NCBI GenBank assembly: GCA_017515285.1
Contig: JAFWGN010000008.1
Location: 62,001 to 126,000 of the forward strand
Direction: 5' to 3'
DNA length: 64,000 nt
Origin: Candidatus Saccharimonadota bacterium
Lineage (GTDB): Bacteria; Patescibacteriota; Saccharimonadia; Saccharimonadales; Saccharimonadaceae
Shown: positions 18,963 through 49,036 of the stretch, one piece after another
Layout: each line of letters begins with the position of its first letter
Position numbering within the stretch: position 1 is the stretch's first letter
Translations under genes and position numbers: made by a program
Notes under the pieces: model-generated
Seen by the model: only the letters and a program-made list of their open reading frames with translations
Told to the model about the DNA's origin: nothing
The model's database searches: none

Positions 18963-19921
18963 ATGTTGTTTTCAGAAGATTTTATTAAGGATGCTTCTAG
19001 CGGTTTTACTGGTTCGCTTTGTTTTAGAGGCGGGTTTTGGCGTTATGTCAATCCTGACGAACGATCATCAGATGCTGTGAAATTCGATAAATTCAATCAG
19101 GAAAAAATCAAAAACCTTTTGTTGTCTAGGAAGCCGAAGACAAGCATACTCAGCGGGCAATCAATTCGAGAACTGCTTGTTCCTCATTCGAAGAACAGGT
19201 ATATTTTGCATGTAGATATAGAGAAGTATTATGAGAATATAGATAAAGCACTGGTCATTCAGTATTTGAGAAGTTCTAATATTTTTGACGAAGAGCATTT
19301 AGAACTTTTTGAGTCGTTCTATTTTGATAAGGAAATGGGTTTGCGAAGGGGGTTGGGTGCTTCGCCGGTTATCTCGGAGATAGTGGGTTTAAAGATAGAC
19401 GCTCGGGCCAGAGAACTCCTTTTCGAGGAGGGTTTGAGACGAATGTAATTTATAGTAGATACTATGACGACGTTTTCTTTTCTTCTGATAGCATTGAAGA
19501 GCTTAGGACGGTAGAGAGAGCTTTTTCAGAAAAGATAAAGCCTTTGAAGCTAGTTTTTAATATTGCCAAGACTAAGCTTTTCTTGTCGTGCGGTGCGAAA
19601 ATGCTCGGACTAAGAATAATGAAAGGTAACGTTACGGTATCCAAGAAAGATAAGAAGTATCTTCGTCCGAAAATTCGTAGGCTCGAAATGCTTTATGACC
19701 GGTGTAAGGATGGGTCGTGGGAGAATAGGGGTGACTTGTGCGATGCTATAGACCAGGCGTCTTGCGTGGTCGGAACAGTGGCATATATTATAGCGAATTC
19801 TTCTAATGAAAATGGAAAATATGTTGTTTTGAAAGAAAAATATTCGCGAATGTTGAGTGAGCTTTTCTCGCATCTGCGAGAGCTGGACGAGTTAAAAGTG
19901 TTTGTGGCTTCGGAAAAGTGA
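18963..19921 (+). pseudogene. Retron-like reverse transcriptase, frameshifted
   Basis: Two overlapping frames encode one RT. The first (18963-19448) carries the motif A aspartate in ILHVDIEKYYENID (Asp85) and a motif B variant RRGLGASPVISE. The second frame, entered near 19430, carries the catalytic YYDD in VIYSRYYDDVFFSS, then KTKLFLS and a retron-like thumb segment MLGLRIMKGNVTVSKK. Joined, it would be about 318 residues, the usual retron RT size. The join needs a -1 (or +2) shift near GAGGAGGG, so the gene is broken unless recoded or missequenced. TTGGAG precedes the ATG at 18963. It lies just 3' of the retron-like ncRNA. Confidence 0.8.
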
Positions 19922-43521: not shown

Positions 43522-43627
43522 AAATTTCCTTTGTTATGTTTTTAGACAATAAAATAAAAGTTCAAAGAATATAATAACATAGAATTGTAAAATAATAAAG
43601 AGGTAATAAAAGGGCTCGCTTGCGGTC

Positions 43628-43728
43628 GACAGTCCGTTCGCAGGCCGCCCTCCTCGCGCCCGTCGTTACGGGGCTCGGGGGCTAATACTCGGTCGTAACC
43701 TCCGTGTTGCCTGCGAGACGGACCTGTC
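43628..43728. repeat. Structured intergenic element, family 1 copy A
   Basis: Arms 43628-43645 and 43709-43728 pair over about 16 positions and enclose an inner GC-rich hairpin, the heptamer CTAATAC (43682-43688) and GGTCGTAACCTCCGTGTTG (43691-43709). Both inner sequences recur in copy B at 48853-48991, while the closing arms differ in sequence but still pair. GGCTCGCTTG precedes both copies. It fills the gap between the ABC transporter stop and fusA. Strand and function are unknown. Confidence 0.75.
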
Positions 43729-43746
43729 TCCCCGCTCGCGTCTTTT

Positions 43747-45987
43747 TTATTCAGATCGTAAAGCCTCGACGGGGTCTTTTTTGCTGGCGCGGCGGGCGGG
43801 GACGGAGCCGGCGAAGACGGTCAAGAGGACGCTGATGGCGATGAGAATGAGAGCGTGGACGGGTGTGAACTGGACGGTGAGGCCGTCGGCGAGTTTGAAG
43901 ACGGAGATGATGGCGTTTGCGAGGAGGCAGAGAAGTTCGGCGAAGAGCATGCCGAGAATGCCGGCGACGAGGCCTTCGATGATGGTTTCGGCGCGGAAGA
44001 CACGGACAACGTCGCGTTTACTGGCGCCGATGGCGCGGAGGATGCCGATTTCTTTAGTGCGCTCGAGGACGGAGATGTAGGTGATGATGCCGATCATGAT
44101 GCTTGAGACGACGAGGGAGATGGCGACGAAGGCGATAAGGACGTAGCTTAGGATGTTGATGACGTTTTTGATGAGGTCGATGCTGAGCTGGGCGGAGTCG
44201 GTATATTTAATACTTGTGTTATGTTCTTTATTGTAGGCGTCGAGGAGGGCTGTGACCTTTTCTTTGTCGGCGTTGGTTTTGGCGTAGATGGCGATGGACT
44301 CGGGAGTGTCAAGGCTATACTTTCCAGCGGAGTTTTTGATTCCCTCTTCGATGAGAGCGTGAGTGTAGCCGAGGAATCCGCTGTCGTCGTTTTTGTCTTT
44401 GGCTTTGGCGACGCCAACGATGGAGAGGCTTTGGCTCGTACCGTCTAGGAAGTCGACTTCGTAGGACTTGCCGATGATGTCTTTAAGGTTTAGTTTTTCA
44501 TCTTTGAAGTTGACGGACTCGCCGGCGTTGAGCTTACTCAAGGTGTCGCTGAGTTTGTCGCGACTTACGAGGTCGAGTGTATAGAGGGTGCTTAGTGAGA
44601 TTTTTGAGTCTTTGTCAAGAACAAGGAGAAGGTCGCTAGAAGATTCGGGAAGTTTTCCCTCGAGAAGGTCGAAGGGGCGAGTGTTGATGATTTCTTTGAA
44701 GCTCGACTTTAAGATGTCGGATTCGGAAACGTCGGTCGTGGTGCGACTTGAGGAGGCGAAGAGAGCGGAGAGGCTGTCGAGTTCATTCTCTATCGGGTGG
44801 ACTTTGACTTTTTTGCCGGAGTTTGTAGTTGTGAATATATCGGGAACGTAGTTGTATTTGTAGCTGATGGTGTCGACGTAGCTAGAAGTGTCGGCAGAAT
44901 CGAGGTAGGCTTTTAGCGGCTTCATGTCGTAATAGCGGATGGTCTTTTGGCGAGTGATGAGAAAGTTTGTAGAAATGTCGTCTGTGCCGAGCAGGGTGCC
45001 GGATTTAACCTCGGTTTTGTCGTCAGTTGCGAGCGAGAAGGATGAAGCGGAATCGTCGGTGTAGGAGCGGTCGATAGTGATGGCGGAAGGAGTGGAGCCA
45101 CTCGACAGCATTTTGTCGGCGTAATTGTTGACGCCGTTTGCGAGGGCAAGAATGAGGGCGATGCCGATGATACCGATAGAGCCGGCAAGGGCGGTGAGGA
45201 AAGTGCGGCCGCGCTTCGTCATGAGGTTGTTTTTGGAGAGATTGAGGGCCGTGAGGAGGCTCAGCGAAGTGTATTTTTGGGCGTTTTCGGACTTGTTTTC
45301 GGACTTGCCGTCGAAAGGTTTGGTGTCGGAGACGATTTTGCCGTCTTTAACGTTGACGATGCGGGTCGAGTAAGCCTTGGCGAGGTCGGGGTTGTGCGTG
45401 ACCATGATGACGAGTTTGTCTTTCGCGACTTCTTTCAAGAGGTCCATGATTTGGACGCTAGTTTTGGAGTCGAGAGCGCCGGTCGGCTCGTCGGCGAGAA
45501 TGATGTCGGGATTGTTGACGAGGGCGCGGGCGATGGCGACGCGTTGCATTTGGCCACCGGAGAGTTGGGAAGGTCGCTTAGCAAGATGTTTTTCTAGGCC
45601 GACTTTTTTAAGGGCGTCAGTTGCGAGCTGTTTGCGCTTTGAAGCCGAGACGCCGGAAAGAGTGAGCGCCAGTTCGACGTTGCTCAAAATGGTTTGGTGG
45701 CCGATGAGGTTGTAGCTTTGGAAGACAAAGCCGATGCGGTGGTTTCTATACGCGTCCCAGTCGCGGTCTTCGTATTTTTTTGTTGAGATACCGTCGATGA
45801 CGATGTCGCCGTGGGTGTAGTGGTCGAGGCCGCCGATGATGTTGAGAAGCGTCGTTTTTCCCGAACCGGAGGGGCCGAGGATAGAGACGAATTCGCTTCT
45901 TCGGAAGTTTATCGAGACTCCGTCGAGGGCTTTGGTTTCGACTTCGTCGGTTTGGTAAACGCGAGAGATGTTTTTGAGCTGTAACAT
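43747..45987 (-). CDS. MacB-like ABC transporter, fused ATPase and FtsX-type permease
   Basis: This 746-residue protein fuses an ABC ATPase (about 1-225: [40 protein letters not shown]) to a MacB/FtsX permease with one membrane helix at about 265, a large extracytoplasmic domain and three C-terminal helices, ending [18 protein letters not shown]. Such proteins export peptides or lipoproteins or act on the cell wall by mechanotransmission. The N-terminal ATPase fusion is like MacB. No MacA-like partner is beside it. Confidence 0.92.
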
Positions 45988-48828: not shown

Positions 48829-48852
48829 GGCTCGCTTGTAGGCTCGCTTGTA
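48829..48852. repeat. Tandem 12-bp direct repeat next to family 1 copy B
   Basis: GGCTCGCTTGTA occurs twice in tandem (48829-48840, 48841-48852), directly before the family 1 copy B arm. Copy A is preceded by a single related GGCTCGCTTGCGG. Confidence 0.8.
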
Positions 48853-48991
48853 GGCAATAGCCCGTTTACCGACACGGGTCGCGCCCGCCCGCCGTCGCGG
48901 GGGTCGCGCCCTAATACGTCGCTTCGCTCGCCGCGTCCCAAGGGGCGGAAGCGGTCGTAACCTCCGTGTTGTCGGCAAACGGGCTATTGCC
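48853..48991. repeat. Structured intergenic element, family 1 copy B
   Basis: Arms 48853-48874 and 48970-48991 pair over 22 positions with one non-Watson-Crick pair. Inside are a GC-rich part, CTAATAC (48911-48917), an extra hairpin not in copy A (about 48918-48952) and GGTCGTAACCTCCGTGTTG (48953-48971). It lies 60 nt upstream of the FISUMP start codon, within the likely 5' region of that gene. Confidence 0.78.
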
Positions 48992-49036
48992 TCGCTCGCC
49001 CCCCATGCCCCCATACCACTCTTCGCTATACAAAAA

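Follow-up and report, generated by a model that had tools for sequence, protein, structure and literature searches.

To our knowledge, protein-coding palindromic elements have been found mainly in Rickettsia and Wolbachia, and their mobility has gone unexplained. The Rickettsia palindromic elements (RPE) are palindromes of ~105-150 bp that lie in frame inside conserved genes, and one interrupted product, guanylate kinase, is translated and active (PMC2229807). Both the RPE and the Wolbachia palindromic repeats occur between genes as well as in frame within genes, in host-dependent bacteria with reduced genomes (PMC2229807, PMC10969869), and the RPE encode a conserved peptide (PMC10969869). Palindromes within coding sequence are also a feature of nematomorph mitochondria, where template switching has been proposed to form and to keep them (PMC6649704). 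Repetitive hairpin-forming elements (RHE) of sponge mitochondria, described for intergenic regions, are said to have invaded repeatedly (PMC2800124).

The palindromic mobile elements that lie within protein-coding sequence of Saccharibacteria form a new family, the first description that we find for Saccharibacteria or Patescibacteria in a search of the open-access literature, and one that extends such elements to bacteria of the candidate phyla. Two copies, A and B, lie in the stretch of 64,000 nucleotides analysed here (the window), which corresponds to positions 62001-126000 of contig 14 in an 850-kb Saccharibacteria genome of 20 contigs, hereafter G000. An earlier note on this sequence had reported that the motif CTAATAC and a 19-mer, GGTCGTAACCTCCGTGTTG, are common to the two copies in the same order, and their exact positions bear this out. 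In a scan of the window the 19-mer occurs exactly at 43691-43709 and 48953-48971 only, against 0.01 occurrences expected from shuffles, and CTAATAC lies 5' of it at 43682-43688 in copy A and 48911-48917 in copy B. The two-copy observation is confirmed as real, and the family is far larger than two copies. Allowing up to three mismatches, G000 holds 12 occurrences of the 19-mer, and beyond G000 exact matches are found in MAGs of further Saccharibacteria from the gut of sheep and of yak, and in one Acidobacteriota MAG. The Acidobacteriota match (L013) falls in alaS-like coding sequence without the fold and was set aside as a chance match, as was L012; viral contigs scanned for the 19-mer gave no matches.

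Each copy of the element spans ~120 bases and, on the strand on which it was found, forms a three-way junction of a closing stem of 15-25 bp (P1), a hairpin of ~15 bp with single-base bulges and a near-invariant tip, CCCGYCKYYRCGGG (P2), and a short hairpin with a conserved internal loop, TC on one strand and TCC on the other (P3). P2 and P3 make up a core of ~70-80 nt that is common to the copies. Copy A (43608..43748, plus strand) is intergenic, lying between the stop of an ABC/FtsX permease gene and the start of fusA, both on the minus strand, and is matched by covariance models R1 (43618-43736, equivalent to G000:C14:105618-105736; 107.7 bits) and R2 (43627-43728). Its predicted fold, at -68.2 kcal/mol compared to -51.4 for shuffles (z -4.7), pairs a left P1 arm at 43614..43645 (outer GCTCGCTTGCGG, inner GACAGTCCGTTCGCAGGC) with a right arm at 43709..43743 (GCCTGCGAGACGGACCTGTC, outer CCGCTCGC). 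Between the arms, all on the plus strand, lie P2 (43646..43682), with its tip CCCGT(CGTT)ACGGG at 43659-43672 and a bulged base 5' of the tip, and P3 (43684..43708), which reads AATAC-TC-GGT(CGTA)ACC-TCC-GTGTT; here AATAC (43684-43688) pairs with GTGTT (43704-43708), and GGT/ACC closes over CGTA. P3 includes most of the 19-mer, and the earlier view of the 19-mer and CTAATAC as unpaired segments fails on this point, as they are largely the two strands of this hairpin. Copy B (48846..48996, plus strand; R1, G000:C14:110846-110996, 74.8 bits; R2, 48854-48990, 69.1 bits) is likewise intergenic, with the pgk stop on one side and, on the other, the start of a gene for a large hypothetical protein; these two genes are also on the minus strand. 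As the earlier note had stated, the closing arms of A and B differ in sequence, and both pair.

Comparison of copies supports this structure. Among 11 copies, 25 of 46 pairs have changed on both sides, a result seen in none of 500 shuffles, and among 50 copies from across the genus the figure is 30 of 35 (12 of 15 for P2), with 80.3% of alignment cells paired as compared to 63.4% after shuffling. The core has a covariation score of 0.453, against 0.175 for shuffled alignments (0/500) and a maximum of 0.167 when pairing partners were slid. The description of a conserved core in a variable but paired frame is thus upheld by very strong covariation. Rfam covariance models run across the whole window recovered two tRNAs only and gave no match to the element, in line with the earlier statement that it resembles no known riboswitch or ribozyme.

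The strong covariation of P1-P3, the conserved internal loop of P3 and the position of copy A 5' of fusA would all be expected of a functional structured RNA, acting either as a cis-regulator of fusA and other genes or as a dispersed small RNA. A sister species, G031, provides evidence to the contrary. The flanks of the copy-A site are 91-93% identical in the two species, and the alignment reaches the far edge of the region upstream of fusA, breaks off there and picks up again at the permease stop, leaving 22 bp in G031 where G000 has 163 bp; because the site in the sister species is empty, copy A is no conserved component of the fusA leader. Moreover, most copies are found within coding genes that are unrelated to one another, in either orientation and in each of the six frames, and the arms show no bias between G.U and A.C (59 versus 76 of 3124), which argues against selection of the arms as RNA of one strand. 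An early hint of an RNA strand, based on 11 aligned copies, was not borne out. A functional RNA is therefore very improbable, being largely refuted by the empty fusA site and the genic copies, and of the two possibilities offered by the earlier note, a functional RNA or a hairpin-recognised DNA element, it is the DNA element that fits best, the RNA no longer serving as the primary reading. Covarying stems in dispersed repeats can reflect inverted copying, not RNA selection.

Of 107 distinct copies, 77 are flanked on both sides by coding sequence on one strand, and the genic copies fall into 29 host-gene clusters. The frame is open through the element in 65 of these 77, compared to ~13% expected with random frame and length, although the 65 are not independent events because different species often have the element at orthologous sites. 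Hosts in G000 include obgE, dnaX, leuS, pepN, xthA, priA and lysS, the first six of which were confirmed with NCBIfam, as were tsaD and recG in other classes; hosts assigned elsewhere by sequence include alaS, lepA, mnmA, der, polA, tsaD, ileS and trmD. Copies occur in sense and antisense orientation, and their use of all six frames speaks for an absence of selection on any peptide; consistent with this, insert peptides compared to Pfam gave no match, and no conserved peptide or domain was seen. The genomes are MAGs. The maintained frames suggest that the inserts are translated, adding ~30-45 residues, and that they behave as tolerated extra residues. A compact, conserved, folded core within essential genes, including alaS and leuS, could alternatively represent a small self-splicing intron or a translational bypassing element, in which case the insert would be spliced out of the RNA or bypassed. 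Neither would need an open frame, yet the frame is open in the great majority of coding-flanked copies, and Rfam gave no match to a known intron family in the window, making removal or skipping of the insert a most doubtful explanation. Many Saccharibacteria enzymes carry such insertions, which could mislead annotation and structural work.

In these respects the element resembles the RPE and the Wolbachia palindromic repeats, with which it shares a dispersed palindrome of ~100-150 bp, residence in both coding and non-coding DNA, and reading frames that are kept open. It differs from the RPE in that each RPE family has one conserved peptide, whereas the Saccharibacteria element, read in six frames, has none, and also in its locus-specific arms around a conserved core, its far larger numbers of copies and of species, and its occurrence in Patescibacteria. 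By these features the RPE are the nearest known kind. The sponge mitochondrial RHE, described for intergenic regions, differ from a bacterial element that forms a three-way junction and is mostly genic.

The genome-wide search that the earlier note had called for, allowing that only two copies might exist, was made with a covariance model and found 14 copies in G000. In a first sample of the genus 35 of 36 genomes have the element, with 1-26 copies each and often 10-26, whereas 24 genomes from other families of the same order gave no copies. A broader model, applied to 380 genomes of the phylum, matched the sampled genus members and, within the same family, three of four sampled genomes from a second genus; two distant families gave isolated copies, to which an earlier search adds one more, in G355. 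Among the distant copies, L332 lies inside tsaD and L319 inside recG. The element is thus thinly spread over Patescibacteria and concentrated in a single genus of gut Saccharibacteria, which has several hundred copies. A sister genus has copies in intergenic, divergent pairs 55-180 bp apart, with arms that differ in each copy (L336, at G568:C2:62481-62743, and L344, L338 and L351, in G568 and G543).

The two arms pair well within each copy, and in most copies the outer stems are peculiar to their own site. In G006, pairs of copies whose cores match at 90% or more of positions (up to 100%) show a mean arm identity of only 0.35, and the corresponding value in G007 is 0.31, compared to 0.32 for shuffled arms; near-identical cores in these two genomes are 93-100% identical. 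G018 is intermediate, with an arm identity of 0.46 against a 95th percentile of 0.44, whereas arms are common to the copies in G000 (mean 0.71), G022 (1.0) and also G017. In G006 and G007, then, the core does not take its arms along, whereas in G000, the window's own species, and in G022 it does. Since several genomes have almost the same core surrounded by arms with nothing in common, the arms would seem to originate locally, site by site. The earlier claim of covarying arms is correct in that the arms pair within each copy; for the most part, though, this pairing does not reflect the classical covariation of homologous stems. Integron attC sites show the reverse of the conserved core and variable outer arms seen here. 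Locus-specific arms may reveal the mode by which such elements insert.

Arms shared among copies of G000 and of G022 are what would be expected of a MITE-like palindrome that moves with its arms by means of a transposase, the arms subsequently drifting while hairpin-templated correction keeps them paired and gene conversion homogenises the cores. Many insertions are indeed old, as judged from sites filled in many species and a decayed remnant in G169, and identical cores at old sites could result from gene conversion among copies. Hairpin-templated correction is an established process that has been discussed for nematomorph coding palindromes (PMC6649704). Conversion would, however, have to stop exactly at the edge of the core in G006, G007 and G018, where cores up to 100% identical are accompanied by arms at or near chance identity, and the Y1 transposase (PF01797) is absent from 35 of 36 genomes of the genus; we regard such a MITE-like origin as unlikely. 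The element also departs from a classical MITE in that terminal repeats are not common to all copies, the arms of G006 and G007 being unrelated, and in having no resident Y1 transposase.

Mobilisation of the IS200/RAYT type was likewise rejected, given the missing Y1 transposase. REP/REPIN sequences and IS200/IS605-derived MITEs are mainly extragenic, and their arms are conserved. The Saccharibacteria element resembles them as a short palindromic repeat that is presumably non-autonomous, and differs in that the mobilising Y1 enzyme is missing from those 35 genomes. Copies A, B, L030, L033 and L065, all between genes, and the terminator-like hairpin that G031 has at the position of L030 would fit a bidirectional terminator, or an intergenic repeat of the REP type, with some copies landing in genes. 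A scan of the minus strand of copy A nevertheless found no terminator, most distinct copies are genic, and with no RAYT/Y1 enzyme in nearly all genomes this origin is scarcely credible. Reverse transcriptase was considered as a mobiliser and rejected: RT genes are present in 24 of 36 genus genomes, but RVT_1 searches gave no match in G003, G004, G018, G025 and G026, which have 15-18 copies each. The window itself contains an RT remnant at 19131-19618, seen as two weak RVT_1 matches in separate stretches, and RT genes of ~380-400 aa occur commonly in this genus.

Orthologous sites with and without the element offer a view of how it may insert. Many species have the element at the same sites, their arms falling at homologous positions. 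The median inverted-repeat score is 12-16 at empty sites compared to 22-37 at filled sites (alaS, mnmA, lepA and pepN); empty sites are not palindromic. The xthA and obgE sites are shorter in G031 than in G000, leuS of G031 holds a different copy (L102), and no direct repeat (target site duplication) is evident when copy A and xthA are compared to G031, although flanks have diverged. The argS loop of G031 holds the element, whereas the same loop in G000 holds another, larger in-frame insert of ~150 nt with multiple hairpins (L377, 2959-3183). The difference at argS points to several coding-palindrome families that share hot loops, and the same gene loops are hit repeatedly. The lepA and mnmA genes of several species have other inserts that do not match the element. 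With many filled and empty orthologous sites and a separable core, both movement and protein tolerance are directly testable.

In alaS, empty orthologs read KMA, four residues and xLSG at constant length. Where the site is filled, KMA followed by FSSH, CTFI, SSSH or RISN, or RVA followed by HVSI, is encoded by the upstream arm, and native sequence resumes right after the downstream arm. By eye, deletion of the core and right arm gives back the invariant KMA-4aa-xLSG spacing, and from this spacing the arm on the upstream side would seem to be native and the one downstream an inverted copy of it. When 42 filled sites in four genes were scored, an upstream-native arm was better in 21 and a downstream-native arm in 14, with seven ties, and large margins came mainly from lepA, so that a native upstream arm over all loci is only suggestive. 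In alaS of G169, a decayed copy (L292) has lost its core and retains recognisable arms and the frame.

We consider it probable that these sequences represent a non-autonomous, protein-coding palindromic mobile element whose arms are made at each site by template switching and whose inserts are translated. Its targets would be intergenic DNA and, in housekeeping genes, positions in variable loops, where only in-frame insertions that leave the reading frame open would be kept. In most species the P1 arms would be made at the insertion site and not carried by the element, one arm being the host's own sequence (in alaS, that on the gene-upstream side) and the other an inverted copy of it. During replication, a nascent strand would switch template to copy the core from another copy of the element, fold on P2/P3, snap back to copy its own upstream flank, and then return to the original template; later rounds of snap-back would keep the arms complementary. 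Template switching is preferred because it is the simplest route to host flank, core and inverted host flank without a dedicated enzyme. The nematomorph palindromes are similar in being perfect, locus-specific inverted repeats within translated genes, but they lack a conserved mobile core, and conserved residues are found in the coding of both their arms, whereas here a defined core is inserted and one arm is apparently extra. A host-derived arm is not described for the RPE in PMC2229807 or PMC10969869. More tentatively, and with slightly less than even confidence, we suggest that only the hairpin core of ~70 nt is transmitted, the outer stem being rebuilt at each site as an inverted copy of the adjacent host gene by the replication machinery with no dedicated transposase, and that this process has added in-frame peptide loops to essential enzymes across Patescibacteria.

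Some copies have particular neighbours. L014 and L017 adjoin paralogous segments with the sequence SRALRSLPLSVMMSGN..., which may represent variable surface proteins. Copy B and L011/L027 (G000:C17) are two copies just 5' of paralogous genes whose products start MQPIK(Q/E)IN, and because these downstream genes are paralogous, at least one of the copies may have been duplicated with its gene. Sequence comparison also reveals an extra segment in P3 of copy B (48918..48951, plus strand), where 34 bases that include CGCGTCCCAAGGGGCGG take the place of TC. A small hairpin segment sharing CGCGTCCCAAGGGGCGG similarly interrupts P2 of L099 (387-540), from another species, as if such segments were nested elements targeting hairpin tips.
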